Part shown: positions 10,964-53,407 of the stretch, piece by piece
Numbering within the stretch: position 1 is the stretch's first letter
Layout of the letters: every line of letters starts with the position of its first letter
NCBI GenBank assembly: GCA_002842205.1
Contig: PHCI01000024.1
Span: forward strand, 1 to 64,000
Source: Betaproteobacteria bacterium HGW-Betaproteobacteria-3
GTDB taxonomy: Bacteria > Pseudomonadota > Gammaproteobacteria > Burkholderiales > Burkholderiaceae_C
Length of the DNA stretch: 64,000 nt
Direction of reading: 5' to 3'
The notes under the pieces: model-generated
What the model was told of the DNA's origin: nothing
What the model saw: the letters and a program-made list of their open reading frames with translations, nothing else
Databases searched by the model: none
Translations under genes and position numbers: made by a program

Positions 10964-10996
10964 GTAGGTTTGTGCATAGGTTGCGCCAATCGTGAT

Positions 10997-18348: not shown

Positions 18349-18368
18349 TCGGTGGTGTCCTTGTTGTT

Positions 18369-29372: not shown

Positions 29373-29483
29373 ATTGGGAATCCCTGCCGTCCTGCGGCGA
29401 TGGCTCGTCGTTTGGTGCTCGTGAATCCTGGGCTTGATCGGTCATGGCTGTGCTCCTGCCGTTGATGAGGAGGAAATGGATGC

Positions 29484-31098: not shown

Positions 31099-31121
31099 GG
31101 GGGACTCCGGTGGGGTGGTGG

Positions 31122-31817: not shown

Positions 31818-31842
31818 GGTGTGCTCCTTGGCAAGTGGGAGA

Positions 31843-32897: not shown

Positions 32898-32909
32898 GGC
32901 GTGGCTTCC

Positions 32910-36170: not shown

Positions 36171-36179
36171 CTTCAGCCG

Positions 36180-36464
36180 TCAGCTGACGATGTAGCTGGC
36201 AAAGGCCGCGGCCCCACCCACCAGCGTGCCGCCAATGAGCACGTTGGCCACATCGGCAAGGCGCGCGCCTTGAAAGATCATCTTGAAGCCGGCCCAGATG
36301 ATCGCGATCGTCACCACGGCCACGGAGATGGTCACCAGGATGGCGTTGACGTTGGTGACCGTCGTGTTCACCTTGTCGAAGCCTTGCGCCCAGACCTGGG
36401 GTGGCAGCAACATCAACAGGCTGAGGGCGCGGACCTGGCCTTGAGACAGTTTTTGGCGGTTCAT
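36180..36464 (-). CDS. virB2: VirB2-type major pilin
   Basis: A 94-residue prepilin. The signal peptide ends at VWA (about residue 26). The mature part begins QGFDKVNTTVTNVNAIL and has two hydrophobic helices (about 38-58 and 68-92) joined by a short basic loop (KMIFQGARLADVAN), the standard conjugative pilin architecture. Small and intact. Its start overlaps the virB1 stop by 4 bp. Confidence 0.88.
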   Translation of the reverse strand: MNRQKLSQGQVRALSLLMLLPPQVWAQGFDKVNTTVTNVNAILVTISVAVVTIAIIWAGFKMIFQGARLADVANVLIGGTLVGGAAAFASYIVS

Positions 36465-37135
36465 GATGGCTCCTTGGATGACGGGTGGGAACGAGGGAGG
36501 GACAGAGATCGGGCCGCAGAGACGACCTTCTGCACATAGCCATGGCGAAAGCCAGTCGAGAAGTTGCCGCTGTAGTAGCAGGAGAGGGCTTTGCGCAGAG
36601 CGGCCTGCCGGGTGTCAGCGCCACCCCGAGACTGCCCGGCTCGCTCGAAGCATTCCGTCAGCACGGACTGCATGGCCGACAGGTTTTGGCAGGGGTCGAA
36701 GGCACTGCTGGTGTTCAACCCCAGACGCCGGAAGTTGCCCACGTTGATCTGCCCCAGGCCGACGCTGAATTTGTGTCCGTCGGAGAACAACTGGTGCGCG
36801 GTGGCCAGTGCTTCATCCCGGTTGTTGGGCTGGCGGCGCAACGCACCACCTACCACGCCGATGGCCCAGGGGTTGAAGGCACTCTCTACAAAGACGAGCG
36901 CATATGCCGTGGTCAGATGGACTTGTGGCGCGCAAGCACTGGCGAGAGCAGCAAACGATGAGGCTTCAATGGCACTTGCGTCAAGGACGAGAGCGAAGCC
37001 AAGCTGCCCGGTTGTCGCCAGAGCAAGAACAGTTGCTGCCGCACCCGCTCTCCGGAGCTTCCCAAGTCCAGTGCCCGCTTGTGCGCCTCCAGATAGTCGA
37101 TCTGGTCGCTGTAGCCGATCGGGGACGAAGTCCAT
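36461..37135 (-). CDS. virB1: VirB1-type lytic transglycosylase
   Basis: A 224-residue protein. The SLT domain contains YALVFVESAFNPWAIGVVGG (catalytic Glu in VESAFNP), then FSVGLGQINVGNFRRLGL and a C-terminal LSCYYSGNF. It makes local holes in peptidoglycan for T4SS assembly. A hydrophobic stretch (AAATVLALATTGQLGFAL, about 34-51) preceded by basic residues could be a signal peptide, but the first ~30 residues look atypical. An alternative frame there reads plausibly (GYSDQIDYLEAHKRALDLG), so a small indel near the 5' end is possible. The ATG at 37135 has GAGG 7 bases upstream; a GTG at 37147 is possible. Confidence 0.75.
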   Translation of the reverse strand: MDFVPDRLQRPDRLSGGAQAGTGLGKLRRAGAAATVLALATTGQLGFALVLDASAIEASSFAALASACAPQVHLTTAYALVFVESAFNPWAIGVVGGALRRQPNNRDEALATAHQLFSDGHKFSVGLGQINVGNFRRLGLNTSSAFDPCQNLSAMQSVLTECFERAGQSRGGADTRQAALRKALSCYYSGNFSTGFRHGYVQKVVSAARSLSLPRSHPSSKEPS

Positions 37136-37234
37136 CAGACACCTCACAGTTTCCGCATCCGCTGGAGGTGAAGGTCACTTCATCTCGCTGGGTGCTGTGA
37201 GGTCAATGTAGGACTGAGATGCGCCTGTTTCGCT

Positions 37235-37806: not shown

Positions 37807-38502
37807 CTAATCGCGATTCCAGGCGGCCATCAGCACCGTGCCGACTTCATCTGCGCCAACATCTGTCTTTGCGGAAGTGCGTCGAGCGGTGGCCCGGCCT
37901 GACCGCACGCCGCCGTGACCCATTTTGGGAGCTGCTGAGTCGATCAGGAGCCCACCCAGCAATACCCGGTAGAACTCCTGGAACGCCTCCTCGATGGTCA
38001 GGTCGGCCTGGGCGAGGAATGTGGGGCGGCGCAACCTCAGTGCGGCTCCCAGGATGAGCTCGGACACCACCAGTCCGTGGCAAGGCGCGAAGACGCCCTG
38101 GTGTACCCCCTCGTCGATCAGTTGGGACAGTCTCACGGTGCGCGCCTGTTGGTAGCGGTCGAAGATGCTTCGGGCGGTTGCGGAGTCCTCCACATCTTTC
38201 AGGAACTGGACGCCGATGCGGCTGGCAGCACGGACGCCCACGCCGAGGTAGGCGGCAAGCGCAGCCGTCAGGTCTTGCTCACGTTCGATCAGCGCTTCGC
38301 CCTGAGCCAGGATGCCGTCGAAGAAGTGTTTCACTGCCGCACAGAAGATCTCCTCTTTCGTCTGTGCGATGTCGTAGAGACGTCGCCGCGAGCAGTGCAT
38401 CCGCGCAGCGATCTCACCTACCGTCATGCCCTTGATGCCCTCCGCCAGCAGCAGATTGGTGAGCGCATCGAAGAACTCGTCGTCCGTGAGCTTCTTTTTC
38501 AT
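37807..38502 (-). CDS. TetR-family transcriptional regulator of the catabolic cluster
   Basis: A 231-residue protein from MKKKLTDDEFFDAL. The N-terminal TetR DNA-binding domain spans about 4-50 (LLAEGIKGMTVGEIAARMHCSRRRLYDIAQTKEEIF); the rest is the all-helical ligand-binding domain. The C-terminal ~35 residues are Arg/Thr-rich and unusual. The ATG at 38502 with AGGA upstream is preferred to a start at 38538, which lies inside the operator region. It is divergent from the acyl-CoA ligase gene with about 216 bp between starts, and that gap holds four GGTACC sites. It probably represses the cluster until a pathway acyl-CoA or substrate binds. Confidence 0.88.
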   Translation of the reverse strand: MKKKLTDDEFFDALTNLLLAEGIKGMTVGEIAARMHCSRRRLYDIAQTKEEIFCAAVKHFFDGILAQGEALIEREQDLTAALAAYLGVGVRAASRIGVQFLKDVEDSATARSIFDRYQQARTVRLSQLIDEGVHQGVFAPCHGLVVSELILGAALRLRRPTFLAQADLTIEEAFQEFYRVLLGGLLIDSAAPKMGHGGVRSGRATARRTSAKTDVGADEVGTVLMAAWNRD

Positions 38503-38522
38503 ACGGGTTTGTCCTGATGAAG

Positions 38523-38598
38523 TTTGGTACCAAATCAATTGACTTGGTACCGTGAAGACATGTCTAATGGTACCAATTTATCTTCATTGGTACCGAAA
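38523..38598. promoter_or_regulatory. Divergent promoter with four GGTACC-centred operator sites
   Basis: GGTACC occurs at 38526, 38546, 38569 and 38589, giving spacings of 20, 23 and 20 bp. The flanks agree with a (T)TTGGTACC(A/G)A core; the first is a perfect 12-bp palindrome TTTGGTACCAAA. A plus-strand promoter TTGACT (38539-38544), an 18-bp spacer, and TCTAAT (38563-38568) fits between them: site 2 lies in the spacer and site 3 directly after the -10. Two pairs of sites two helical turns apart suit a cooperatively binding TetR dimer pair. Confidence 0.75.
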
Positions 38599-38718
38599 AA
38601 ATGTCATGTATTCAATGCTTCCCAGGGCAGAGGTGCAACCCGCCTGCCCGTGCTGGAAACACGCAAATTGTCAACGATTGCGGGCTCCCGGCCCAGGCAT
38701 GAACGGAGAGCTGCCGCG

Positions 38719-40284
38719 ATGAATTTGCTGGATTTCTTCGATGCTGGCGTTGCCAGTCACCCGGACGCCTCGTGCTTCGTGGACTGCGAGAGTGGGGCTC
38801 CGGCCATCACCTACGCGCAGGCCGGAGCGTTGACCTGCCAGATCGCCAGGGGGCTGCAGGCCCTGGGACTCTCACCGGGCTTCCATGGCGCTGTGTTGAG
38901 CGGCAATGCCGGGGCTGCCTTCACGGCGCTGCTGGGGGTATTGCGCGCCGGGGGCGTCTGGCTGCCCGTCAACGCGCGCAACGCGGTAGAGGCCAACATC
39001 GAGTTCCTGCAGGACATGGACTGCGACGTTCTCTTCTACCAGGCCCGCTATGCGAGCCAGGTCGCGGAGATCCGCGGCAAGTTGCCCCGCATTCGCCATT
39101 GCATCGCGCTGGACGATGAGCAGGGGCCGGACCTGTCGGTCGCCCGGTTGGTCCAGGGCCATTCGCCCGAGCTGTTCGCGGCGCCCCTGCAGCCTCAGGG
39201 GCTGGCCATGATCATGGGCACCGGCGGCACCACGGGGCGTTCCAAGGGCGTCATGCTCAGCCACCGCAACCTGACGGCGACCATGGCCAACCACCTGTCG
39301 GCCATGGCCGTGACTGACCGCATGACCGTGCTGGCCGCGGCTCCCATCACGCACACGGCGGGGCTGGTGTCGATGCCCTTCATGGTGCGCGGCGGGCGCG
39401 TCGTGCTGATGGACGGCATCGACCCGCAGAAGCTGCTCCAGGTGATCGAGCGGGAGCGGGTGAACATGCTGTTCCTGCCGCCGACGGTCATCTACACACT
39501 GCTGGCCCAGCCCAACGTGCGTGATTTCGACTTCTCTGCCCTGCGCTACCTCATGTACGGCGCGGCGCCCATGTCGCCCGACAAACTGGCGGAGGCCATT
39601 GAAGTGTTCGGTCCCGTCATGCTGCAGATCTATGGCCAGGCGGAAGTGCCCGGCGCCATCTCTGTGCTGCGGGTCGAGGACCATTTCGTGGACGGGCAGG
39701 TGGCGCCCCGCCAGCGCCTGCTGAGCGCCGGGCGCCGCTTTCCCTTCACGCGGGTGGCGATCATGGATGACGACGGCAACCTGCTCACCCAGCCGGGGGC
39801 CGTGGGCGAGATCGTCGCGCAGGGCGACATCGTGACCGCGGGCTACTACAAGAATCCCGATGCCACTGCCGAAGTGCAGCGCCACGGCTGGCACTGCACG
39901 GGCGACGTCGGCTACTTCGACGAACAGGGCTTTCTGTTCATCGTCGATCGCAAAAAGGACATGATCGTCACGGGCGGCTTCAACGTCTTTTCGTCCGAGG
40001 TCGAGGCTGCCGTCATGGCCCACCCGGCCGTGAAGGATTGTGCCGTCATCGGCGTGCCCGACGACAAGTGGGGCGAGGCCGTCAGGGCGGTCATCGAACT
40101 GCGCCCGGGCCAGTCCGTGGAGCCGCAGGCGCTCATCCAGTTCGTCAAGGACCGCCTGGGCAGCGTCAAGGCGCCCAAGGAGGTCGAGATCGTCGAGCAG
40201 CTGCCGCGCAGCGCGGTGGGCAAGGTCCTGAAGAAGGAAGTCCGCAAGAAGTATTGGCACGCGCAGGAGCGGATGGTCTCCTGA
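38719..40284 (+). CDS. AMP-dependent acyl-CoA synthetase/ligase
   Basis: A 521-residue adenylate-forming enzyme that activates a carboxylic acid as its CoA thioester via acyl-AMP. The ATP-binding P-loop is GTGGTTGRSKGVML (167-180). Downstream are YGQAEVPGAI (motif with YGxxE), YKNPDATAEVQRHGWHCTGDVGYFDEQGFLFIVDRKKDMIVTGG (hinge, TGD and DRKKD motifs), and the C-terminal catalytic Lys in PRSAVGKVLKKEVR. The substrate is not predictable; length and motifs fit the FadD/FadK class. The start at 38719 has GGAGAG 9 bases upstream. It is the first gene of the TetR-controlled operon. Confidence 0.88.
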   Translation: MNLLDFFDAGVASHPDASCFVDCESGAPAITYAQAGALTCQIARGLQALGLSPGFHGAVLSGNAGAAFTALLGVLRAGGVWLPVNARNAVEANIEFLQDMDCDVLFYQARYASQVAEIRGKLPRIRHCIALDDEQGPDLSVARLVQGHSPELFAAPLQPQGLAMIMGTGGTTGRSKGVMLSHRNLTATMANHLSAMAVTDRMTVLAAAPITHTAGLVSMPFMVRGGRVVLMDGIDPQKLLQVIERERVNMLFLPPTVIYTLLAQPNVRDFDFSALRYLMYGAAPMSPDKLAEAIEVFGPVMLQIYGQAEVPGAISVLRVEDHFVDGQVAPRQRLLSAGRRFPFTRVAIMDDDGNLLTQPGAVGEIVAQGDIVTAGYYKNPDATAEVQRHGWHCTGDVGYFDEQGFLFIVDRKKDMIVTGGFNVFSSEVEAAVMAHPAVKDCAVIGVPDDKWGEAVRAVIELRPGQSVEPQALIQFVKDRLGSVKAPKEVEIVEQLPRSAVGKVLKKEVRKKYWHAQERMVS

Positions 40285-40339
40285 CCACTGCGCGCTTCAA
40301 TTCAACGCACGTTTGGCAATTCAACCTGGAGGTATCGCA

Positions 40340-41527
40340 ATGCAAGAACCCGTTCTAGTCGCCGGTGTCGGCATGACCCCTTTCAAGAAACCTGGCGACA
40401 ACCTGCCGTACCCGGAAATGGCCGCGCTGGCGATCCGCCAGGCGCTACAGGACGCAGGACTGGCGTACTCCGATATTCAGGACGTCTATGCAGGCTATGT
40501 ATATGGCGACTCGGCCAGCGGCCAGCGCGCGGTCTATGAGGTCGGCATGACCGGCGTGCCGGTGATCAACGTCAACAACAATTGCTCCTCCGGCTCAACC
40601 GCCTTGTACCTTGCGCGGAAAGCAGTTGCCAACGGGTCGGCCGACTGCGCACTGGCAGTGGGCTTCGAGCAGATGCCCTCGGGCGCCCTGAAGGCGCACT
40701 GGGATGACCGGCCCGATCCGCTCGACCGCTTCAACGGGGTCATGGATGAGGTGTTTGGCCATCCCGAGCTGCCCATGGCGATTCGCTACTTCGCTGCAGC
40801 GGGCCGCGAGCACATGGACCGGTACGGCACCTCCCTGGAAACCTTTGCCCGTATCCGCGCCAAGGCGAGCCGCCACGCCGCGCGCAACCCGCTGGCACTG
40901 TTCCGCAGGGAGGTAACAGTGGAAGAGGTGCTGGCCAGCGCCGCTCTGGTGCCGGGCACCATGACCCGCCTCATGGCGTGCCCACCGACCTGCGGTGCCG
41001 CTGCTGCAGTCTTCGTGAGCAAAAGGTTTGCCCAAAAGATGGGGCTAGACCCCCGTGTGCAAGTGCTGGCCCAGTCGCTGGTGTCTGACCGCCCCGGCGC
41101 GTTCAGCGACAAGTCAGGCATTTCCATCGTGGGCTTTGACATGACGCGCGAGGCCGCCCGCCAGGTCTATGAGGCATCGGGCATTGGGCCGCAGGACATC
41201 GACGTGTGCGAGCTGCACGACTGCTTCGCACAGAACGAGCTGCTCAGCTACGAGGGCCTGGGCTTCTGCGGCATCGGCGAAGGCCAGGCCTTTGTCGAGT
41301 CCGACAGCAATACCTACGGCGGCGCCGTCGTCGTCAACCCCTCGGGTGGGTTGCTGTCGAAAGGCCATCCGCTTGGCGCGACCGGCCTGGCGCAATGCTA
41401 TGAGCTGGTTCACCAGATCCGCGGCAACGCCGAAGAGCGCCAGGTGGAAGGCGCGCGGTTTGCCCTGCAACACAACGCCGGACTGGGCGGTGCCACCGTC
41501 GTGACCCTCTATGGCCAAGCACAGTAA
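40340..41527 (+). CDS. Thiolase-family enzyme (SCP2/lipid-transfer type)
   Basis: A 395-residue thiolase. The nucleophile Cys82 lies in NVNNNCSSGSTALYLA. The second signature is GIGPQDIDVCELHDCFAQNE (catalytic-site His), and the third GGLLSKGHPLGATGLAQCYEL supplies the GHPxGATG His. This pattern (NNNCSSGS, no C-terminal CxGGG Cys) is that of SCP-x/non-specific lipid-transfer thiolases, which often cleave branched-chain or steroid side-chain 3-oxoacyl-CoA and sometimes act as aldolase partners. The GGAGG site is 7 bases before the ATG. It is co-transcribed with the neighbouring SDR (11-bp gap). Confidence 0.87.
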   Translation: MQEPVLVAGVGMTPFKKPGDNLPYPEMAALAIRQALQDAGLAYSDIQDVYAGYVYGDSASGQRAVYEVGMTGVPVINVNNNCSSGSTALYLARKAVANGSADCALAVGFEQMPSGALKAHWDDRPDPLDRFNGVMDEVFGHPELPMAIRYFAAAGREHMDRYGTSLETFARIRAKASRHAARNPLALFRREVTVEEVLASAALVPGTMTRLMACPPTCGAAAAVFVSKRFAQKMGLDPRVQVLAQSLVSDRPGAFSDKSGISIVGFDMTREAARQVYEASGIGPQDIDVCELHDCFAQNELLSYEGLGFCGIGEGQAFVESDSNTYGGAVVVNPSGGLLSKGHPLGATGLAQCYELVHQIRGNAEERQVEGARFALQHNAGLGGATVVTLYGQAQ

Positions 41528-41537
41528 GGAGTACGGC

Positions 41538-42347
41538 ATGGCGAAACGCTTGGAAGGCAAGGTAGCCCTGGTGACCGGTTGCGGATCGTCGGGCCCCGGC
41601 TGGGGCAATGGCAAGGCCATGGCCGTGCTGTTCGCCCGCGAGGGCGCCAAGGTTTATGGCTGCGACATTCATCTGGATGCCGCGCGAGAAACCGAAGCGA
41701 TCGTGCGCCAGGAGGGCGGAACCATGAGCGTCGCCCAATGCGATGTGACCGATCCTGGCGCGGTGGAGTCGTTGATCCAGGACTGCATCGCTACCTTTGG
41801 CGACATCGACATTCTGGTGAACAACGTCGGCACCGCCCGAATGGGCGGGGTCGTCGAACAGAGCCTGGAGGACTGGCGCATGGTTTTCGACGTCAATCTG
41901 ACTTCCATGTTCCTCACCTGCAAACATGCCATTCCCTCCATGCTCAGGAAAGGCAAGGGGAGCATCGTCAACATCGGCTCGGTGGCCGGCGTGCGTGACA
42001 GCGGTGTGGCCTATGTTTCCTACAGCGCTTCGAAGGCTGCGGTGCTCGGCTTTTCACGCAGCGTCGCCCTGCAATTTGCCAAACAGGGCATCCGCTCGAA
42101 CGTACTGATGCCGGGCCTGATGAATACGCCGATGGTCCGGCAACCGTTGCTGAAACTGGCAGACGGATACCAGGAAGCATCGTTGGAAGAAACGCTGGAA
42201 AAGCGGGACAAACAGTGCCCGATGGGCCATATGGGAGAGGCATGGGACGTGGCCTACACCGCCCTGTGGCTGGCGAGTGACGAATCCAAATATGTTACTT
42301 CCGCCGAAATCATGGTCGACGGCGGCATTTCTGCCCGTATCGGCTAA
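41538..42347 (+). CDS. Short-chain dehydrogenase/reductase (SDR)
   Basis: A 269-residue classical SDR. The NAD(P)-binding TGCGSSGPGWGNG motif (about 12-24) is a variant of TGxxxGxG with an insertion. NNVGTARMGG is followed by catalytic Ser in NIGSVAGV and Tyr-Lys in YSASK (about residues 159-163). A C-terminal YVTSAEIMVDGG closes the fold. It probably oxidises a 3-hydroxyacyl-CoA or ring alcohol to supply the thiolase. AAGGAG lies 7 bases upstream of the start at 41538. It follows the thiolase gene and precedes the ABC importer by 37 bp. Confidence 0.87.
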   Translation: MAKRLEGKVALVTGCGSSGPGWGNGKAMAVLFAREGAKVYGCDIHLDAARETEAIVRQEGGTMSVAQCDVTDPGAVESLIQDCIATFGDIDILVNNVGTARMGGVVEQSLEDWRMVFDVNLTSMFLTCKHAIPSMLRKGKGSIVNIGSVAGVRDSGVAYVSYSASKAAVLGFSRSVALQFAKQGIRSNVLMPGLMNTPMVRQPLLKLADGYQEASLEETLEKRDKQCPMGHMGEAWDVAYTALWLASDESKYVTSAEIMVDGGISARIG

Positions 42348-42384
42348 TCAGAAACTTTTTTAGATCAACCACAGGAGACAAATC

Positions 42385-43581
42385 ATGGGTAATTTTGCGC
42401 AATGGTTCAGGAAAAGCATGGTGGTCGCAGCAGCAGCCACCATCGGAATGGCGTCCACGGGGTACGCACAGTCCAAGCCGGAGAAATTCAAGATCGGCGG
42501 TGTGCTGTCCCTCTCTGGCCCCTATGGCTTGCTGGGCGAGGACATGCGGCGGGGCGTGCAGATCGCTGTGGAGGAACGCGGCGGCAAGGTGCTGGGCGTT
42601 CCGATCGAAATCACCTGGGAGGACGATGAGACCAAGCCTCAGCCGGCCGTCCAGAAAGCCACCAAGCTGATCTCCGAAGGTTCTCACATGATTTTTGGAG
42701 CGCTGAGCTCCTCATCGACGCTGGCAGTCATGAACGTGACCAAACAGCGCAAGATCCCTCATCTTGTCACCATTTCGGCAGACGACAAGATCACCGTGCC
42801 CGGCGGCTCCCGCTACACGTTCCGCACCTCCAACAACCTGGACATGGAAAACCGCATGGCACTGGTGTACATGCAGGAAAAGAAACTCAAACGAATCTAC
42901 GCGGTCACCGCCGACTACCAGGCCACCCGTGACGGCTACGTTTGGATCAAGTCCCAACTCGAACCCAACGGCATACAGGTCGTGGGCGAAGACTTCCCCC
43001 CATTTGGCAACCGCGACTACTCGTCGATCGTTGACAAGGTAGCCAAGTCGAACGCTGACGGCGTGTTGCTGATGATGACCGGCTCCGATGTGGTCACCTT
43101 CCTCAAGCAAGCCGGCCAGGTCAATCTGGGAAAAACCAAACTGCTTTTCGGTCCCGTGGCTGCCGATGACACGATGGTGGCGGCCGTTGGGCCGGCTGCA
43201 GTGGGTGTCAACTCCGGCCAGCGCTACCACTACACCGTCGACAACGCGGCGAACCAGAAGTTCGTTGAGGCCTATCGGAAGAAGTTCGGCATGTTCCCCA
43301 GCATGACGGCAGGAGAGGCCTACGACGGCATGGCATGGTGGCTCGACACGGTGGAAAAGACGGGCTCCTGGGACAAGGAAAAGTGGGTGGACGCATTTGC
43401 GACCAGCGTTCGCGAAAACTCCGTTGAAGGTAAGAAAACCATGCGTGCCTGCGACCATCAAGCGGCACAGCCTGGATTCTGGAGTGAGGTGGTGCATGGC
43501 ACCCCGCCAGCCCCGGCTTTGACGATGAAGGTCACCAAGGTCTTCCCCGAAGAGAAGCTTTTCGCACCCTGCAAAAACTGA
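42385..43581 (+). CDS. Branched-chain amino-acid-type ABC transporter, substrate-binding protein
   Basis: A 398-residue periplasmic protein. The signal peptide (FRKSMVVAAAATIGMASTGYA, cleavage near residue 28) is followed by a type 1 LivJ/LivK fold: FKIGGVLSLSGPYGLLGEDMRRG, then LGVPIEITWEDDETKPQPAVQKATKLI and IFGALSSSSTLAV. In catabolic clusters such proteins usually bind aromatic acids, urea or other carboxylates instead of leucine; here the ligand is presumably the pathway's substrate acid. A GGAGA site precedes the ATG. A strong hairpin after the stop may give it higher expression than the permeases. Confidence 0.9.
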   Translation: MGNFAQWFRKSMVVAAAATIGMASTGYAQSKPEKFKIGGVLSLSGPYGLLGEDMRRGVQIAVEERGGKVLGVPIEITWEDDETKPQPAVQKATKLISEGSHMIFGALSSSSTLAVMNVTKQRKIPHLVTISADDKITVPGGSRYTFRTSNNLDMENRMALVYMQEKKLKRIYAVTADYQATRDGYVWIKSQLEPNGIQVVGEDFPPFGNRDYSSIVDKVAKSNADGVLLMMTGSDVVTFLKQAGQVNLGKTKLLFGPVAADDTMVAAVGPAAVGVNSGQRYHYTVDNAANQKFVEAYRKKFGMFPSMTAGEAYDGMAWWLDTVEKTGSWDKEKWVDAFATSVRENSVEGKKTMRACDHQAAQPGFWSEVVHGTPPAPALTMKVTKVFPEEKLFAPCKN

Positions 43582-43594
43582 GGACCGCACCGCG

Positions 43595-43618
43595 CGCAGG
43601 CTCCGCTGGGAGCCTGCG
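43595..43618 (+). terminator. Attenuator-like hairpin between binding-protein and permease genes
   Basis: A 10-bp perfect stem (CGCAGGCTCC at 43595-43604 and GGAGCCTGCG at 43609-43618) with a 4-base loop, 13 bases after the stop. No T-run follows (TGCAACC), so partial termination or mRNA stabilisation is likelier than full stop. It is a common way to make more binding protein than permease. Confidence 0.55.
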
Positions 43619-43651
43619 TGCAACCTGGTTACTCCTACCCGGTGAATCGAT

Positions 43652-44509
43652 ATGTCAACTATTGTGATTGGCTTGAGCTTGGGCATGCTGCTGTTCCTAC
43701 TGGCAGCGGGCCTGACGCTCATCTTTGGCATGCTGGGCGTGATCAATTTCGCCCACGGCGCCATTTACATGCTCGGCGCCTACATCTCGTATGAGACAGG
43801 AAGGCGCACAGGCTCTTTTCTCATGGGGGCGCTGGTTGCCACACTCTTCACCGCACTGGTGGGGGCGGTGGTTGAAAAACTCACGCTGCGCCCACTCTAT
43901 GAACGCCCCCATTTCTACCAATTGATCCTGACCTTCGGGCTGATCCTGGTGCTGAGCGACCTGGTGCGCTTCTTCTGGGGACCGGGCTACCAGGAGGTAC
44001 CGATTCCGCAACTGTGGAGTGGCACGGTGGACATGCTGGGCAGCACAATCCCTATGTACCGGCTTTTCGTGATCGGATTCGGCGCCCTCATTTCGGTGGG
44101 GCTCTACCTCGTGCTGGAGAAAAGCACTTTCGGCATGCTTGTGCGGGCCGCAAGCAGCGACGCAGAAATGGTGCGCATCCTGGGACTGCCGGTGGGCACC
44201 ATCCGCATGGCGGTCTTCGCCATCGGCTGTGGACTGTCCGGCCTTGCCGGTTCCATTGCAGCGCCGTTGTTCCCGATCGAGCTGGGCATGGCGACCAACA
44301 CCATCATCGACTGCTTCATCGTTGTCATTCTGGGTGGCCTCGGGAATATCCGTGGGGCGATCGCTGCATCAATGCTGATCGGCATGGTCCGCGCCATCGG
44401 CTATGTGTATATGCCAGGCTGGGTGGACATCATGACTTTCGTGCTGCTGATTGGCACCCTTTTGACGCGCCCGCAGGGCCTGTTCCACCGGACGGCGAGG
44501 ACGGCATGA
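43652..44509 (+). CDS. ABC transporter permease, LivH type
   Basis: A 285-residue inner-membrane protein with about eight hydrophobic segments, beginning STIVIGLSLGMLLFLLAAGLTLIFGMLGVINFAHGAIYMLGAY, the LivH N-terminal signature (GLTLIFGxxGxINFAHG). The later ARAASSDAEMVRILGLPVG is the cytoplasmic EAA-like loop that contacts the ATPases. It forms the channel with the LivM-type permease, whose start overlaps this stop (ATGA). Confidence 0.92.
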   Translation: MSTIVIGLSLGMLLFLLAAGLTLIFGMLGVINFAHGAIYMLGAYISYETGRRTGSFLMGALVATLFTALVGAVVEKLTLRPLYERPHFYQLILTFGLILVLSDLVRFFWGPGYQEVPIPQLWSGTVDMLGSTIPMYRLFVIGFGALISVGLYLVLEKSTFGMLVRAASSDAEMVRILGLPVGTIRMAVFAIGCGLSGLAGSIAAPLFPIELGMATNTIIDCFIVVILGGLGNIRGAIAASMLIGMVRAIGYVYMPGWVDIMTFVLLIGTLLTRPQGLFHRTARTA

Positions 44510-45474
44510 AGCTCACCAAATTTGATATTTACTTTGGCTTGCTGCTGGCTGCGGCGAGCATCGTGCTGCCCTTCCTCAGTCCAGGGGAGGCCATGATCCA
44601 GTTGCTCACATTGGCGGCCATTTGGGCAATCTTCGCCATCGGATTCGATTTCGTCTTCGGCTCGCTGGGCATGGTGTCCTTCGGGCATGCCACCTTCCTG
44701 GGAGTGGGCGGCTACGCGGTGGCCCTGGCAACCCAGAAATACGGTCTGCCGTTCTATGGCGGAGCAGTCCTTGCTATTGCCGTGGGTGCGGCTTTTGCTC
44801 TGCTTTTCAGCTTTTTCGCCCTGCGGGTCTCCGGCATCTTCTTCGCCCTGGTCACCTTGGCGCTATCGCAGTTGATCTTCATCCTGGCCGACAGCAAGCT
44901 GCGAAGCTTCACGGGCGGTTCGGATGGCATCTCCGGCGTCGAACGCCCCAATTTTCTGGGCATCGACTTCTTCGATCCTGTGAACTACTACTGGTTTGTT
45001 CTGGGCCTATATGCCTTGGTCATGCTGGCGGTGATATCCCTGCGCAGCTCGCCGTTCGGACGCGTGATCGCAGCGATCCGGGACAATGAAACCCGTGCCG
45101 ATCAGTTGGGCTTCAACGTCAACCGCTACAAGCAAATCACCTTCGTGATTTCTGGAGCCCTGAGCGGCCTGGCGGGTGCCTTGCTGGCTTCGCTGCTGAT
45201 GTACATGAACCCCCAGATGCTGCATTGGACAACATCTGGGGACGTCATCATCATGACACTGCTGGGCGGCTCCGGCACGCTCTGGGGCGCAACCGTCGGC
45301 GTGCTGGTCTTCGAGTTCCTGAAGGAATGGCTGAGCAGTTGGACCGAGTACTGGTATGGCGTTCTGGGCACAGTGTTCATCCTCGCGACCATCTTCTTCC
45401 CGCGCGGCATCATCGGTGAACTGGAGAAGGGTTTCGCGACTTACCAGAAAAATCGCCGGGGAGGTGCACGATGA
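44506..45474 (+). CDS. ABC transporter permease, LivM type
   Basis: A 322-residue permease from MKLTKFDIYFGLLL. It contains the LivM signature FDFVFGSLGMVSFGHATFLGVGGYAVA (about 45-71), RVIAAIRDNETRADQLGFNVNRYK (ATPase-contacting loop) and some nine hydrophobic segments. Its start overlaps the LivH-type stop by 4 bp and its stop overlaps the LivG-type start by 4 bp. The frame open upstream to 44014 is inside the previous gene. Confidence 0.92.
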   Translation: MKLTKFDIYFGLLLAAASIVLPFLSPGEAMIQLLTLAAIWAIFAIGFDFVFGSLGMVSFGHATFLGVGGYAVALATQKYGLPFYGGAVLAIAVGAAFALLFSFFALRVSGIFFALVTLALSQLIFILADSKLRSFTGGSDGISGVERPNFLGIDFFDPVNYYWFVLGLYALVMLAVISLRSSPFGRVIAAIRDNETRADQLGFNVNRYKQITFVISGALSGLAGALLASLLMYMNPQMLHWTTSGDVIIMTLLGGSGTLWGATVGVLVFEFLKEWLSSWTEYWYGVLGTVFILATIFFPRGIIGELEKGFATYQKNRRGGAR

Positions 45475-46223
45475 GCCAGGTAGCACTCAAATGCGAGGGT
45501 GTGACCGTGAGTTATGGCGCCCTGAGGGCCGTCAACGACGTCAGCCATGATTTTCAAGAAGGACGCATTTACGGCCTGATCGGGCCCAACGGCGCGGGCA
45601 AGACGACGCTGCTCAATGTCCTGGCCGGGCGGCAAATGCGCCATGACGGCAAGGTGTTCTGCCGCGGCCAGGAAATCAGCCAGCGTCCCGCTTACGAACG
45701 GGCCCGCATGGGCATTGGGCGCAGCTTCCAGATCATCAAGATCTTCGGAGAGATGACGGTTGCTGAGAATCTGCTGATCGCGGCCCAGTCCCGCCGACCG
45801 GGATTCCAGCCTTTCTGGGCAAGCAGCAGCTTCGACAAGCAGTTCCAAGAGCAACTCGATGCCATCCTGGAGCTGACAGGGCTTGCCGCCCACCGCGACG
45901 ACATCGCGGGCACGCTGCCCTATGGCTTGCAACGCTCGTTGGAGCTGGGCGTGACCTTGCTGCCCGACCCCAAGATTCTGCTGTTAGACGAGCCACTGGC
46001 CGGCATTGGCCACCATGAAATTCAGGCAGCGCTGGAATTGATCCAGAAGGTCGCGGTGGGGCGGACGGTGCTCCTGATCGAGCACAACATGGATGCGGTG
46101 ATGTCTCTTTCCCACGAAATCGTGGTCATGAGCAACGGTTCTGTCATCGCCTGTGGGTCTCCCGAGGACATTCGCAAAAACGAATCGGTGCGCTCGATTT
46201 ACCTTGGGGAGGACGCCCTGTGA
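45471..46223 (+). CDS. ABC transporter ATP-binding protein, LivG type
   Basis: A 250-residue ATPase. Walker A is GPNGAGKTT (about 38-46), the signature region is LPYGLQRSLELG (a variant of LSGGQ; YGLQR is common in LivG), and Walker B is ILLLDEPLAGIG with a switch His in LIEHNMDAVM. It powers import with the LivF-type protein. Its stop overlaps the next start by 4 bp. Confidence 0.92.
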   Translation: MSQVALKCEGVTVSYGALRAVNDVSHDFQEGRIYGLIGPNGAGKTTLLNVLAGRQMRHDGKVFCRGQEISQRPAYERARMGIGRSFQIIKIFGEMTVAENLLIAAQSRRPGFQPFWASSSFDKQFQEQLDAILELTGLAAHRDDIAGTLPYGLQRSLELGVTLLPDPKILLLDEPLAGIGHHEIQAALELIQKVAVGRTVLLIEHNMDAVMSLSHEIVVMSNGSVIACGSPEDIRKNESVRSIYLGEDAL

Positions 46224-46927
46224 TCGAACTCGAAAAAGCTAGCGTCAAGTATGGACAAGCCCTGGCGCTGGAAGAAATTTCCGTACGTATCGATGCCCAT
46301 GAAATCGTCGCCATCGTCGGACGCAACGGCGCGGGCAAGACCACTCTGCTCAAAGCCCTGATGGGCTTGATGCCTCTGGTCGCTGGTCGACGTCTGCTGG
46401 GTGAGCAAGACATTTCAGGATTCGGCGTGGAAGCCATTGCCAAGCTCGGCGTGGCGCTGGTACCCGACACACGCCGGATCTTCCCTAACTTGACGGTACT
46501 GGAAAACCTGAAGATTGGCACTCTGGCACACCAGCCGGGGCACTGGACCATTGAGCGGGTGCTGGAGGTCTTTCCGCGCCTGGCAGAGCGGTTGAACTTC
46601 GGTGGCGACCATCTTTCCGGCGGGGAGCAGCAGATGCTTTCCATCGGACGCGCCTTGCTGAGCAATCCCCGCATCCTCCTGCTTGACGAACCCACCGAAG
46701 GCTTGGCGCCCGTCATCGTGGACCAACTGGTTCGGGTGTTCAGCGAAGTCCATAGCCAGGGCACCGGCATCGTCCTGGTGGAGCAGAACCTTAAGGTTCC
46801 CATGAAGCTGGCCCACCGCCAGTACGTGCTGGACCACGGCCAGGTCGCCTGGTCTGGCACGGCGCAGGAGCTCAATGCCCAGCGCGCCCATGTCGAAGGC
46901 CTCATCACGACAGGTTCCGCAACATGA
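46220..46927 (+). CDS. ABC transporter ATP-binding protein, LivF type
   Basis: A 235-residue ATPase: Walker A GRNGAGKTT (about 35-43), signature LSGGEQQMLSIGRAL, Walker B ILLLDEPTEGLAP and the switch segment LVEQNLK. LALVPDTRRIFPNLTVLENL is a LivF hallmark (VPxxRxxFPxLTVxENL). Completes the importer. Overlaps the next gene by 4 bp, which ties importer and catabolic genes into one transcript. Confidence 0.92.
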   Translation: MIELEKASVKYGQALALEEISVRIDAHEIVAIVGRNGAGKTTLLKALMGLMPLVAGRRLLGEQDISGFGVEAIAKLGVALVPDTRRIFPNLTVLENLKIGTLAHQPGHWTIERVLEVFPRLAERLNFGGDHLSGGEQQMLSIGRALLSNPRILLLDEPTEGLAPVIVDQLVRVFSEVHSQGTGIVLVEQNLKVPMKLAHRQYVLDHGQVAWSGTAQELNAQRAHVEGLITTGSAT

Positions 46928-47559
46928 CCCGACATGCTCAACGCATGCCCAACACAGACACTTCCATGAACGCCAACACCTGCGCACGCATCGCACCGCT
47001 GCATGAAAGCGACCCCCGCTCCCAAGATCCGGTACTCGAGGATCTGGTGAATTTCGTCGGCTACCGTCCGAACGCGCTGCTGACCATGGCACGCAAGCCT
47101 GGTGTGGTGCCAGCGCTGCTCAAGCTGCTGGGCGTGACACTGCGTGGCGATGGCCTGCTACCGCAATCCCTGCGCTTTCTGATCGCGGCGGAAGCCGCAC
47201 GTGGTGCGCGCTGCCGCTATACGACAACGCACCTCGTACATGCTGCCAACCACCTGGGCGTTGACTGGGACAAGCTGGCCGCGTTGCCGTCGTACCAGAA
47301 CGATCCCCGGTACACGGAACAGGAACGAAAGGCGCTGGCCATCGCCACCGCCGGGGGGCGCCTGCCGGTGCGCGAACCGGCACGGGCTATGGAGCAGGCC
47401 AAGCAGGTCTTCTCTGAAGAGGAAATCGTGGAGATCGTGTCCTGCGTGGCCATGGCCGGCTGGTTCAACCGCTGGAATGGCCTGATGGGTTCCGAGCTGG
47501 AACCCGTTCCCTCCGAGGCGCTGTCCCATGTCCCCTGGCTCCAGGACCTCGAAGTCTGA
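46924..47559 (+). CDS. Carboxymuconolactone decarboxylase/AhpD-like family protein
   Basis: A 211-residue helical protein related to the CMD/AhpD family: FVGYRPNALLTMARKPGVVPALLKLL, then LRFLIAAEAARGARCRYTTTHLVHAANHLGV. AhpD-like peroxidases have a CxxC-H relay; here only one Cys is seen (ARCRYTTTH), so a disulphide redox role is doubtful and another activity or a structural role is possible. Alternative starts exist at 46945 and 46966. Translationally coupled to the importer ATPase and followed by the second CoA ligase after 45 bp. Confidence 0.7.
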   Translation: MTRHAQRMPNTDTSMNANTCARIAPLHESDPRSQDPVLEDLVNFVGYRPNALLTMARKPGVVPALLKLLGVTLRGDGLLPQSLRFLIAAEAARGARCRYTTTHLVHAANHLGVDWDKLAALPSYQNDPRYTEQERKALAIATAGGRLPVREPARAMEQAKQVFSEEEIVEIVSCVAMAGWFNRWNGLMGSELEPVPSEALSHVPWLQDLEV

Positions 47560-47604
47560 GCTCGCAGCGCATCCATATTTCCTGGAATGGAGAAAGAGAA
47601 GGCT

Positions 47605-49206
47605 ATGTACAGCCGCATCCACGAGCCCCACGCCTGCACGCTGACCGATGCCCTGCGCGTATGGGCCGCCAGCCACTCCGGTGCGCCCTGGCTGGAAGAC
47701 AGCCAGGGGAACGCACTCACCGCCGGGCAGGCCTTAGAAGCCAGCCAGCGGTTTGCCCGCTTCCTGCACCAGCTGGGCGTGCAGCCCGAGGAGCGCGTCG
47801 GCATCTTCATGTCCAACAGCTGCGCCATGGTAGCAACCACGTTCGGCGTTGGCTACCTGCGGGCCAAGGCGGTGATGCTCAACACCGAGTTGCGTTCCTC
47901 CTTCCTGCGCCACCAGTTGAACGACTGCCAACTGGCCACAATCGTGGTGGACGCGGTGCTGGTCGAGCACATCGCCAGCCTGGCGGACGAATTGCCCCAC
48001 CTGCGCACCCTGATCGTGGTGGGCGACGCGCCCGCCGCCGTACCCGGACGCTGGCGTCAGGTGGCCTGGATGGACAGCAGCGCCTGCGCGGCGTGGGAAG
48101 GCCCTGCTCCCCGACCCGAGGACATCTTCTGCATCATGTACACCTCCGGTACCACCGGGCCGAGCAAGGGCGTGCTGATGCCGCACTGCCACTGCGCTCT
48201 GATCGGGCTGGGGGCCATACGCAGCCTGGAAATCACCGCCGCCGACAAGTACTACATCTGCCTGCCCCTGTTCCACGCCAACGGCCTGTTCATGCAGCTG
48301 GGGGCGACGGTGCTGGCGGGCATCCCGGCCTTCCTCAAGCAGCGGTTCAGCGCCAGCACCTGGCTGAGCGACCTCCGGCGCAGCGGCGCCACATTGACCA
48401 ACCACCTCGGCACGACGGCCATGTTCGTCATCAACCAGCCGCCCACAGGACAGGACCGCGACCACCGCCTGCGCGCGAGCCTGAGCGCGCCAAATCCGGC
48501 GCAGCACGAGGCCGTGTTCCGCGAGCGCTTCGGTGTGAAGGACGTGCTGTCCGGGTTCGGCATGACCGAGGTCGGCATTCCCATCTGGGGGCGCATCGGG
48601 CACGCGGCGCCGAACGCTGCCGGGTGGACGCATGAGGACCGGTTCGAGATCTGCATCGCCGACCCCGAAACCGACGTGCCCGTGCCCGCCGGACAGGTCG
48701 GCGAAATTCTGGTGCGGCCCAAGGTGCCCTTCGGCTTCATGGCAGGCTACCTGAACGTTCCGGAAAAGACGGTCGAAGCATGGCGCAACCTCTGGTTCCA
48801 TACCGGGGACGCGGGCATACGGGACGCGCAAGGACTCATCACCTTCGTGGACCGCATCAAGGACTGCATCCGTCGCCGTGGTGAAAACATCTCGGCCACG
48901 GAAGTCGAGGCCGTGGTCAGCCAGTTGCCCGGCATCCACGAAGTTGCGGCTTACGCCGTTCCGGCGCAAGGTGCGGGTGGCGAGGATGAGGTGATGCTGG
49001 CCCTGGTGCCCAGCGAAGGCGTGACGCTGGACATGGCGGACATCGTCCGCCAGGCCAGCGCCCAGTTGCCGCGCTTCGCCAAGCCGCGCTACCTGCGCCA
49101 AATGGACTGTCTGCCGAAGACGGCGACGGGCAAGATCCAGCGTGCCATCCTGCGTCAGCAAGGCAGCGCCGACGCCTACGATGCCGAGGCGGCACACAGC
49201 CAGTAA
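47605..49206 (+). CDS. AMP-dependent CoA ligase (crotonobetaine/carnitine-CoA-ligase-like)
   Basis: A 533-residue adenylate-forming enzyme from MYSRIHEPHACTL. It has P-loop YTSGTTGPSKGVLMPH (about 177-192), GFGMTEVGIP, the hinge/core motifs WFHTGDAGIRDAQGLITFVDRIKDCIRRRGENIS and the C-terminal catalytic Lys in PKTATGKIQRAIL. It differs clearly from the first ligase, so the operon can activate two acids or act at two stages. The layout most resembles CaiC-like ligases, but the substrate is not predicted. Start at 47605 with GAGAAGG upstream; 47587 is also possible. Confidence 0.87.
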   Translation: MYSRIHEPHACTLTDALRVWAASHSGAPWLEDSQGNALTAGQALEASQRFARFLHQLGVQPEERVGIFMSNSCAMVATTFGVGYLRAKAVMLNTELRSSFLRHQLNDCQLATIVVDAVLVEHIASLADELPHLRTLIVVGDAPAAVPGRWRQVAWMDSSACAAWEGPAPRPEDIFCIMYTSGTTGPSKGVLMPHCHCALIGLGAIRSLEITAADKYYICLPLFHANGLFMQLGATVLAGIPAFLKQRFSASTWLSDLRRSGATLTNHLGTTAMFVINQPPTGQDRDHRLRASLSAPNPAQHEAVFRERFGVKDVLSGFGMTEVGIPIWGRIGHAAPNAAGWTHEDRFEICIADPETDVPVPAGQVGEILVRPKVPFGFMAGYLNVPEKTVEAWRNLWFHTGDAGIRDAQGLITFVDRIKDCIRRRGENISATEVEAVVSQLPGIHEVAAYAVPAQGAGGEDEVMLALVPSEGVTLDMADIVRQASAQLPRFAKPRYLRQMDCLPKTATGKIQRAILRQQGSADAYDAEAAHSQ

Positions 49207-49221
49207 ACACGAGAGCACACG

Positions 49222-50055
49222 ATGTCGGAAAAGTTGCGCGGCAAGGTGGCTGTGGTCACCGGCTCTGGGCGGGGCATCGGCCGTGCGATGGCCATCAAGC
49301 TCGCGAGCGAAGGTGCCAGGCTCGTCCTCAATGACCTTGACGTTGCGCCCGCCGAAACCGTGCGCGAGGAAATCCTCGCGCTGGGCGGCGAAGCGGTGGC
49401 CTGCTGCGGCAGCGTGGCTGACGCCGGTTTCGCCGACCGGCTGATCGGCACCGCCACCGGCGCGTTCGGCGGGCTGGACATCCTCATCAACAACGCTGGC
49501 TACACCTGGGACAACGTCATCCAGAAGATGAGCGACGAACAGTGGGAGGCGATGATCGACGTACACCTGACCGCGCCGTTCCGCATTCTGCGGGCGGCTC
49601 AGCCGGTGATTCGAGCGCTGAGCCATGCCGATTCAGCGGCAGGCCGCCGCGTAGTGCGCAAGGTGGTCAATATTTCCTCGGTTTCAGGCGTCTTCGGCAA
49701 TGCCGGCCAGGCCAACTACTCCGCCGCCAAGGCCGGCATCATGGGCTTGACCATGACACTGGCCAAGGAATGGGGCCGCTTGAATACGACGGTCAATTGC
49801 GTGGCCTATGGCCTCATCAAGACCCGCGCGACCGAGGCCACCTCGGACGGGAACGCCACCATCGAGGTCGAGGGGCGCGAGATCAAGGTGGGCGTGAACC
49901 CGGATCTGATGGCCATGATGGAGCGCAGCATCCCGCTGGGCAGGGCTGGTACGCCGCAGGAGGCTGCCGGTGCGGCCTACCTGTTCTGCATTCCCGAGTC
50001 CGACTACGTGAGTGGCCAGACCGTGCTGTGCACGGGTGGACTCACGGGCATTTGA
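49222..50055 (+). CDS. Short-chain dehydrogenase/reductase (SDR), second in operon
   Basis: A 277-residue classical SDR: TGSGRGIGRAMA (about 13-24), NNAGYTWDN, catalytic Ser in NISSVSGV and NYSAAKAGIMG with the Tyr-Lys pair (about 165-169). Near the C-terminus the sequence SDYVSGQTVLCTGGLTGI follows the FabG-like pattern. It probably oxidises a hydroxyacyl intermediate, possibly a different one from the first SDR. It has 15 bases between the previous stop and its ATG. Confidence 0.87.
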   Translation: MSEKLRGKVAVVTGSGRGIGRAMAIKLASEGARLVLNDLDVAPAETVREEILALGGEAVACCGSVADAGFADRLIGTATGAFGGLDILINNAGYTWDNVIQKMSDEQWEAMIDVHLTAPFRILRAAQPVIRALSHADSAAGRRVVRKVVNISSVSGVFGNAGQANYSAAKAGIMGLTMTLAKEWGRLNTTVNCVAYGLIKTRATEATSDGNATIEVEGREIKVGVNPDLMAMMERSIPLGRAGTPQEAAGAAYLFCIPESDYVSGQTVLCTGGLTGI

Positions 50056-50078
50056 ACCTTCACACCAGCTTTTTTCGT

Positions 50079-51131
50079 ATGTCGAAGCCCGAAACCACCG
50101 CACTACAGTACCCTTTCGAGCCACCTGCTCCAGGTCATGCGGCGGAAATCGCCCCTGGCGTGCACTGGATCCGGCTGTCCATGCCATTCCGGCTGGACCA
50201 CATCAACGTCTGGGCCATCGAAACGCACGATGGCTGGGTGCTGGTGGACACCGGTCTGAACGACCCCGGCACCGTGGCAGCATGGCTGGCACTCATGGCC
50301 CAGGGGCCGCTGGCGCGCCCGCTGCAGGGTGTGTACGCCACGCACATGCACCCCGACCACATCGGCCTCGCGGGTTGGTTCACGCGCCGCGCCGGTGTAC
50401 CGCTCTACATGAGCCGCCTTGAATACCTCACCTGCCGCGTCATGCACGCCGACACGAGCCGTGAGGCACCGCCCGACGGCGTGCTGTTCTGTCGGCGCGC
50501 CGGCTGGTCCGAGGCTGCTATCGAAAGCTATCGCAGCCGCTTCGGCAGTTTTGGCAAGCACATCCACGCACTGCCAGAGAGCTTCCGACGCCTGCAAGAT
50601 GGAGAACAGATTTCATTGGGCACGCATACCTGGCAGGCGGTCACCACCAGTGGCCACTCGCCGGAACATATCAGCCTTTACTGCCCGGACCTGAAGCTGC
50701 TGATCGCGGGCGATCAGGTGCTGCCGCGGATTTCGTCCAACGTTTCGGTGTTCGCCAGCGAACCCCAGGCCAACCCGCTCAAGGAGTGGTACGAATCGCT
50801 GGAAAAGCTGCTGCAGATGGTGCCCGCCGATGTGCTGGTGCTGCCCTCCCACAACGAACCCTTTTACGGACTGCACGAACGCCTGCACGCGCTCAAGGCC
50901 AACCAGACCCAGGCGCTGGTGCGGCTGCGCCAGCAGTTGCAGGGTGGACCGCAGCGGATCGTGGACGTATTCCCCGCCCTGTTTCACCGCTCCATCGGCG
51001 AGAAGGATGAACAGCAACTGAGTCTCGCCACGGGGGAAGCCGTGGCTTGCATGAACTACCTCATCGCAGAACGTGCCGTGGATTGCACCGTGGATGGAAA
51101 TGGCGTCGCGTGGTACGCGCTGAAACAATGA
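50079..51131 (+). CDS. MBL-fold metallo-hydrolase
   Basis: A 350-residue protein from MSKPETTALQYPFEPP. The metallo-beta-lactamase motif ATHMHPDHIGLAG (HxHxDH) is near residue 89. Later metal ligands are likely in TTSGHSPEHISLY (His) and LLIAGDQVLP (Asp), then LPSHNEPF (His). The MBL fold hydrolyses thioesters, lactones or phosphate esters. Here a thioesterase or lactonase step in the pathway is plausible but not shown. It is the last gene of the plus-strand operon. The frame extends upstream into the SDR, but 50079 is the first sensible start. Confidence 0.82.
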   Translation: MSKPETTALQYPFEPPAPGHAAEIAPGVHWIRLSMPFRLDHINVWAIETHDGWVLVDTGLNDPGTVAAWLALMAQGPLARPLQGVYATHMHPDHIGLAGWFTRRAGVPLYMSRLEYLTCRVMHADTSREAPPDGVLFCRRAGWSEAAIESYRSRFGSFGKHIHALPESFRRLQDGEQISLGTHTWQAVTTSGHSPEHISLYCPDLKLLIAGDQVLPRISSNVSVFASEPQANPLKEWYESLEKLLQMVPADVLVLPSHNEPFYGLHERLHALKANQTQALVRLRQQLQGGPQRIVDVFPALFHRSIGEKDEQQLSLATGEAVACMNYLIAERAVDCTVDGNGVAWYALKQ

Positions 51132-53136: not shown

Positions 53137-53407
53137 CCGATGGCCTCCTGCACAGGGCAATGGTGTTGGCTTTCGGCGCTGATTATGGTCGGCTGGAGTT
53201 CATCCTGCGCGTGCAGGAGTACGCGGGTGCACCGCTGAAAGGACCGGTTTAGCTGAATTGACGTGAGGTCAAAGTTCCTAAACCACCAGCACGCTGCTGG
53301 GATCTCCTGCTACCGTTTGGCGCGGCCTGGGCCTTGTGCTCCGACATACGCTCCCGTGCGCTGCGAGGCCGTCCGCAGCCACACGCCGTGAGGAAGGGGT
53401 GTCCATC

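Follow-up and report, generated by a model that had tools for sequence, protein, structure and literature searches.

A predicted mobile, repressor-controlled gene cluster for degradation of an imported organic acid in a Burkholderiales genome

Comparison with described systems

In mammals, the peroxisomal beta-oxidation of branched-chain acids relies on AMACR, MFE-2 and SCPx. Bacterial systems that invite comparison are the proteobacterial bile-acid side-chain pathway Sal/Shy (PMC12329534), the ABC importers for aromatic and fatty acids of R. palustris, whose binding proteins bound aromatic, fatty or dicarboxylic acids or amino acids of other kinds (PMC3223731), and the catabolic integrative and conjugative elements (ICEs) of the Tn4371 family, membership of which is defined by an integrase more than 70% similar together with shared maintenance and transfer genes (PMC2789088, PMC11448139). 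The locus described here lies in contig PHCI01000024.1 (C10; 114,703 bases) of Betaproteobacteria bacterium HGW-Betaproteobacteria-3, the first 64 kb of which constitute the analysed window. A cluster at 37807-51131 (module 1) comprises, in this order, genes for a TetR-like regulator, CoA ligase 1, an SCP2-type thiolase, the dehydrogenase SDR1, a five-gene Liv-type importer, a CMD protein, CoA ligase 2, SDR2 and an MBL protein. A second gene set (module 2, C10:63645-78026) starts 12.5 kb past the cluster, with only its first few hundred bases inside the window, and encodes TetR, an acyl-CoA dehydrogenase (ACAD), LivF, a binding protein, LivM, LivH, a FadD-type ligase, LivG, an SDR, a thiolase-like protein and a CoA-transferase-III-family protein, followed on the opposite strand by an enoyl-CoA hydratase (ECH) and a PaaK-like protein. 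The sequence gives good support to the prediction that this locus encodes a mobile pathway, under the control of a repressor, for an acid taken up from outside. We give an even chance to the fuller reading that both modules form one mobile catabolic island, which would carry out CoA activation and peroxisome-like beta-oxidation of an acid that is probably alpha-methyl-branched or ring-bearing, the alpha-methyl branch being a reasoned guess. No paper on this cluster was found in the open-licence literature, judged mainly from titles and the starts of abstracts.

The mammalian peroxisomal pathway and the window island have in common a type-1 SCP2 thiolase, an MFE-2-like dehydrogenase and an AMACR-like protein, here gathered on one island; unlike its counterpart, the island has an acyl-CoA dehydrogenase instead of an oxidase, a crotonase-type hydratase, dedicated importers and mobility. 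Two SCP2-thiolase clusters of Burkholderiales (loci L030 and L031) likewise contain an SCP2 thiolase (66%), an SDR2 relative (67-71%), an ACAD and a racemase-like protein, in the order thiolase, FAS1/MFE-2-hydratase-like protein, MaoC, SDR2 relative, ACAD and racemase-like protein; further points of likeness are the ligase of L030 and the module-2-like importer of L031, whereas the pair of FAS1-type and MaoC hydratases carried by both is missing from the window. The importers of R. palustris also combine a Liv-type transporter with a neighbouring CoA ligase and degradation genes (PMC3223731), but their solved binding proteins are only ~22-25% identical to that of the window. In the Sal/Shy pathway, too, a thiolase-fold enzyme cleaves an acyl-CoA side chain, yet the steroid side-chain aldolases Sal and Ltp2 carry the motifs YDCY and YDHF (PMC12329534), while the module 1 thiolase has HDCF, a motif on which such an aldolase was rejected, and neither DUF35 nor MaoC was among the Pfam results of either module. 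Finally, in three genomes (G133, G186 and G311) module 1 stands beside integrase, RepA, ParA and relaxase genes that resemble the scaffold of Tn4371-family ICEs (named partly by eye; PMC2789088, PMC11448139); unlike those elements, its cargo does not consist of biphenyl genes, and on the window island the secretion system is of the VirB type and the integrase does not resemble that of G133.

Enzymes, importer and control region of module 1

The genes from ligase 1 to the MBL gene occupy a single strand, with non-overlapping neighbours spaced 10-70 bp, ATGA overlaps at LivH/LivM, LivM/LivG and LivF/CMD (the last only if the CMD gene starts at 46924) and a GTGA overlap at LivG/LivF (Table 1). 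An earlier note, made from the letters of this DNA, had listed these genes and described them as tightly coupled by several ATGA overlaps; order, strand and coupling were all confirmed.

The thiolase scored 638.8 bits against the NCBIfam model NF006102 (PRK08256; cut-off 436), and its nearest solved relative is the type-1 SCP2 thiolase PDB 6hsj (8.7e-127). The nucleophilic Cys (C82), the HDCF motif and the GHP motif are present in all 79 aligned thiolases, the window's included. CoA ligase 1 remained under the cut-off of every NCBIfam model among the 25 matches listed, and CoA ligase 2 reached 473.8 bits against NF004808 (cut-off 722), with no solved relatives at 1e-50. The nearest solved relative of SDR1 is a putative SDR, 5jc8 (9.4e-72; 2et6 at 2.1e-43), and that of SDR2 is 2et6 (3.3e-63; runner-up 1.2e-45), a (3R)-hydroxyacyl-CoA dehydrogenase (yeast MFE-2); the top NCBIfam matches of SDR2 were FabG models, under cut-off. 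Among 80 SCP2-thiolase loci at least 39, including four with the module 1 cluster, contain a relative of SDR2 at 55% or above, a tally that omits the SDR2 genes of loci L011, L012, L016 and L017 (missed by the gene caller and present by alignment). The CMD protein barely exceeded the cut-off of PF02627 (24.9 bits against 23), is nearest among solved structures to the debrominase Bmp8 (6.6e-25), and in 11 of 11 sequences keeps C83 and has Thr in place of the second Cys of CxxC, and thus lacks the CxxC pair of redox CMD/AhpD proteins. As for the MBL protein, the HxHxDH motif is intact in 9/9 sequences, the top NCBIfam match gave 80.2 bits (cut-off 525), and the nearest solved structures, 6ao1, 5u8o and 5i0p, bear general names only (e.g. 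beta-lactamase domain protein, Zn-dependent hydrolase).

The binding protein and the four transporter proteins matched Liv and Urt models of NCBIfam, LivK, LivH, LivM, LivG and LivF included, with all matches listed under cut-off. Both E. coli LivJ and LivK have Glu at the position of LivJ Glu226, the ammonium-binding residue that holds the ligand's amino group. In an alignment with these two proteins all seven sequences show Pro in the corresponding column, or Val when the GP motif is set in register, and because no acid stands at this position a ligand without an amino group is favoured. Asp/Glu residues do occur three to four places after it. The predicted structure of the binding protein (mean pLDDT 85) matches aromatic-acid, amino-acid and urea binders alike, and searches by sequence and by fold bring up, among the nearest solved proteins, the R. 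palustris hydroxybenzoate/vanillate binders 4ey3, 4evq, 4eyg and 4evs as well as amino-acid and urea binders; since the latter rank about equally high, the fold search does not decide the ligand class.

Control by a TetR protein had been proposed in the earlier note. A divergent TetR-like gene is indeed present, although it lies outside the interval assigned to the cluster in that proposal (38719-51131), and its TetR_N match (20.7 bits) falls under the Pfam cut-off of 24. Ten of the 11 loci compared retain the regulator, at 69-84%, and the remaining one, L018, is truncated there by its contig end. The hexamer GGTACC forms a series of four boxes in the stretch that separates the regulator from ligase 1, at 38526, 38546, 38569 and 38589 (spacing 20/23/20). 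On C10 as a whole this hexamer occurs 17 times, against 38 expected from base composition, and four of the 17 are packed into 69 bases upstream of ligase 1. All boxes recur at the same spacing in four of six extracted intergenic regions (window, G306, G133 and L010), and the remaining two contain three (G010) and two (G305) exact boxes. In a scan of nine genomes for GGTACC-N14-GGTACC, all matches fell at the module 1 locus except one in G116, whose own module 1 locus has one exact pair. The reversed control pattern gave 0 to 4 matches per strand per genome, and single pairs are therefore not rare by chance; two pairs at one locus are notable. A sigma-70 promoter scan of the same intergenic region found nothing, which makes TTGACT-N18-TCTAAT a weak promoter candidate.

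Table 1. Positions of module 1 features in the window and of two module 2 enzymes on contig C10
Feature	Position	Strand	Basis or remark
TetR-like regulator	37807..38502	-	divergent from operon; TetR_N below cut-off; gene call
Four GGTACC boxes	38526..38594	.	predicted operators of regulator
CoA ligase 1 (AMP-forming, FadD-like)	38719..40284	+	PF00501, PF13193
SCP2-type (type-1) thiolase	40340..41527	+	NF006102, PDB 6hsj, motifs
SDR1, candidate hydroxyacyl-CoA dehydrogenase	41538..42347	+	PF13561
Periplasmic binding protein, Liv-type importer	42385..43581	+	PF13458
LivH-type permease	43652..44509	+	PF02653
LivM-type permease	44506..45474	+	PF02653 (tested in longer frame from 44014); ATGA overlap
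LivG-type ATPase	45471..46223	+	PF00005, PF12399
LivF-type ATPase	46220..46927	+	PF00005
CMD-family protein	46924..47559 (alternative start 46966)	+	PF02627
CoA ligase 2 (PRK06155-like)	47605..49206 (upstream ATG 47587 also possible)	+	PF00501
SDR2, MFE-2-like 3-hydroxyacyl-CoA dehydrogenase	49222..50055	+	nearest solved relative 2et6
MBL-fold hydrolase, candidate thioesterase or lactonase	50079..51131	+	PF00753
ACAD, module 2	C10:64473-65624		outside window
ECH, module 2	C10:75924-76784		outside window

Mobility and the second module

Conservation was followed in the 11 loci whose thiolase shows 87% identity or more, a gene being counted as kept at 60% identity or more over at least half its length. 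All 13 genes are kept in six loci and five are incomplete: L010 is a 5-kb contig, L018 begins at a contig end and has no ligase 2, SDR2 or MBL within 2.5 kb past CMD, L019 lacks the same three genes, and L016 and L017 are without ligase 1 and SDR1. Separately, the SDR1 match of L012 falls in two pieces, so that this gene may be broken there. Below ~76% identity the thiolase is not a useful marker of the cluster, since SCP2 thiolases at 63-69% occur in many other contexts. In an Ottowia locus (L143, 15740-16429), a DUF4336 protein follows CMD in place of ligase 2, SDR2 and MBL.

Stretches of 21,182 bases are identical among L013, L014, L015 and L020 (two Variovorax, Bordetella ansorpii and Pseudorhodoferax) and 99.96% identical in L012 (Diaphorobacter), four genera of two families, implying very recent transfer. 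Likewise, G133, G186 and G311 are 99.95-100% identical over ~40 kb of the fetched stretches. Besides the scaffold genes named above, this near-identical element contains genes for a thiolase, an ECH and an SDR, and in G311 the sequence that follows it adds ACAD, ETF and transfer genes (all partly by eye); the maintenance genes of the element match annotated plasmid records. At the junction with the relaxase region in G133 (L121, 9383-9697), a short frame resembles the start of a thiolase-like gene. Only module 1 (~37807-51124) was shared when C10 was compared by megablast with stretches from G133, G186, G305, G306 and G311.

The window island encodes a MobA/VirD2-type relaxase and VirB4-, VirB8-, VirB10-, VirB11- and VirD4-like proteins, a set suggesting a conjugative island. 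The relaxase and VirB-type secretion genes are located upstream of the cluster, at 4206-5180 and 25025-37147 of the window. An integrase at C10:87823-89187, beside chromosomal-looking signalling and flagellar genes, has no significant similarity to the G133 integrase, and no exact 14-base repeats were found between the right end of the island and the rest of the contig. Megablast against plasmids returned no copy of the whole cluster (of 14 matching records, none covers more than 3% of the query) and none of the secretion region. At 1e-110 the binding protein was detected in one of 397 other genomes of a phylum-wide sample and one of 398 of an order-wide sample. Module 1 is, by these comparisons, sporadic and mobile. 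As a separate observation, a tyrosine recombinase (Pfam; C10:78753-79757, L007 18753-19757) is followed by two similar-looking recombinase genes (by eye) up to C10:81984, and C10:78030-78271 and 85647-85888 form inverted repeats of 92.6% identity.

No ACAD or ECH was found among the proteins of the interval 38719-51131, in agreement with the earlier note, which had concluded that the steps between were missing or in another locus, or that the pathway was not classical beta-oxidation. Absent or distant middle steps are not supported: module 2 supplies an ACAD 13.3 kb and an ECH 24.8 kb past the cluster on the same contig, and module 1 has such genes as direct neighbours on a Sulfitobacter plasmid and in a pair of metagenome-assembled genomes (see below). 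The module 2 ECH is of the crotonase type, the solved relatives of the ACAD are general short-chain types, and the match of the PaaK-like ligase is under cut-off. The family III protein is nearer to MCR/AMACR than to CoA transferases, with 5.6e-76 against the alpha-methylacyl-CoA racemase MCR and, among non-racemases, 6.7e-31 against YfdE (best), 1.7e-29 against succinate-hydroxymethylglutarate CoA-transferase and 8.8e-10 against formyl-CoA transferase 1p5h. It carries the racemase residues GHDxNY (22 of 22 sequences), GD and IEP, and is predicted to be racemase-like. The module 2 thiolase-like protein (L007 13440-14678) keeps the nucleophilic Cys and has HDA[TS] in place of HDCF in 28 of 28 sequences, with ENGGG in 27 of 28 and a gap in the remaining one; this motif, too, is neither the YDCY nor the YDHF of steroid side-chain aldolases.

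In the two metagenome-assembled genomes (L016 and L017, the latter from G116), identical to each other over 21,182 bases, the modules adjoin with one extra ACAD gene between them, and module 1 lacks ligase 1 and has SDR1 reduced to a remnant. On the Sulfitobacter plasmid p2SUD7 a module 1 homologue is followed by ECH, thiolase-like, ACAD, SDR and CaiB/BaiF genes. G305 possesses both modules at separate places, its module 2 including an MBL protein 79% like that of module 1, and the module 2 MBL of G136 is 77% like the window's. In a family-wide count of 399 genomes, module 1 occurred in eight, the module 2 marker in seven and both in three (hypergeometric 1.8e-4, rising to 3.9e-3 when the window's own genome is left out, with both draws of 399 apparently the same set and relatedness uncorrected). 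From the neighbouring positions in L016/L017, the Sulfitobacter arrangement, the shared MBL in G305 and G136 and the co-occurrence, we infer that the modules may cooperate. An Acinetobacter plasmid (L157, 2148-13032) also carries a related set of beta-oxidation genes, among them those of an MBL relative (54%) and of a racemase-like protein (59%).

Proposed pathway, alternatives and neighbouring genes

From the gene content, motifs and order we infer the following sequence of reactions. The periplasmic protein would capture an organic acid without an alpha-amino group, which the Liv-type importer would take in and an AMP-forming ligase convert into its CoA thioester. The racemase-like protein of module 2 would set the alpha-methyl stereocentre, and ACAD and ECH would lead to the 3-hydroxyacyl-CoA, to be oxidised by an SDR (the MFE-2-dehydrogenase-like SDR2, SDR1 or SDR3) and cleaved by the SCP2-type thiolase, with release of propionyl-CoA if the substrate is alpha-methyl-branched. 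The MBL and CMD proteins probably act on acyl or lactone intermediates, which is a guess, and the TetR-like repressor probably binds at the four GGTACC boxes. The gene families predict what the earlier note had proposed, namely a dedicated uptake route, activation with CoA and removal of a side chain by thiolysis. Its bulky acid finds partial support, in that the type-1 SCP2 thiolase, the MFE-2-like SDR2 and the racemase-like protein of module 2 argue for a bulky or branched substrate; a steroid side-chain aldolase finds none.

Several observations weigh against an island-wide pathway for a branched acid, chiefly that no methylcitrate gene was found over cut-off and that the modules also occur separately. 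Among the methylcitrate markers, sought as a test of propionyl-CoA release because they would be its expected sink, prpD and citrate synthase II (TIGR01800) matched only below cut-off and prpF gave no match, the methylmalonyl route not being searched; this weakens the case for a branched substrate. Five of the eight module 1 genomes are without the module 2 marker and four of the seven module 2 genomes are without module 1. In the 12 genomes behind L010-L021 the marker reaches 86% in only two and at most 38% in the other ten. A module-1-like core (binding protein, LivHMGF, two ligases, SCP2 thiolase and SDR) is present on Pseudosulfitobacter and Tistrella plasmids with no ACAD or ECH annotated in the stretches shown, and the pair scan found no GGTACC pair at module 2. 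The stereochemistry may also mismatch, given a module 2 ECH of the crotonase type and an SDR2 whose likeness is to a (3R)-specific enzyme; FAS1-type hydratase matches were found, on contigs other than the window's. Moreover, neither SCP2 thiolases nor racemase-like proteins of this kind are confined to branched substrates.

The plasmid-borne cores, the module 2 genomes devoid of module 1, the ten genomes devoid of a close module 2 marker and the specificity of GGTACC pairs for module 1 speak instead for module 1 acting alone on acids that already bear a 3-hydroxy or 3-keto group; such an acid, once taken up and ligated to CoA, would be oxidised by SDR1 and cleaved by the thiolase, ACAD and ECH would be superfluous, and module 2 would be an independent neighbour. 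We regard this as rather unlikely, given that the modules adjoin in L016/L017, as do related modules in Sulfitobacter, that the element of G133, G186 and G311 has thiolase, ECH and SDR genes, and G311 also ACAD and ETF, and that general ACAD and ECH genes elsewhere in the genome could serve anyway. Still less probable is an ordinary pathway for aromatic or phenylpropanoid acids, in which a benzoate- or cinnamate-like acid would be imported and its side chain shortened to aroyl-CoA. The hydroxybenzoate/vanillate proteins among the nearest solved binders, the aromatic ligands reported for R. palustris (PMC3223731) and the PaaK-like ligase of module 2, itself below cut-off, agree with such a pathway; however, amino-acid and urea binders rank about equally in the fold search, no ring-attacking enzyme appeared among the Pfam matches of either module, and the racemase-like protein is left unexplained. 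An importer for branched-chain amino acids or urea beside unrelated fatty-acid genes, as the top NCBIfam matches to Urt and Liv models would have it, is disfavoured as very improbable: these matches are all under cut-off, the acid at the Glu226 position is missing from all seven sequences, and the importer stays with ligase and thiolase genes on alphaproteobacterial plasmids as well.

The reading of modules 1 and 2 as one catabolic island can be carried further, to a self-contained bacterial counterpart of peroxisomal branched-chain beta-oxidation that is recently spreading with its own importers and repressor, and through which bacteria of different genera would use a natural or man-made alpha-methyl-branched acid (isoprenoid, steroid-derived or a 2-arylpropionate), the pathway being one not yet assigned to any substrate; we hold this possible, if doubtful. 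That four genera share 21-kb stretches which are identical or nearly so suggests that the use of some compound has recently been selected for. Should this compound be an alpha-methyl-branched pollutant, or an acid from plants or algae, the island would account for the spread of the ability to use it, and its repressor and operators would provide a ready sensor for the compound. The two-module layout also indicates that a pathway gap in one sequence window can be closed by a mobile neighbour.

Other genes of the window include a fatty acid desaturase gene between the modules, near a transposase (53399-54355), and type I restriction-modification genes (HsdM-like and HsdR-like) with AAA ATPase genes nearby (9044-21113).

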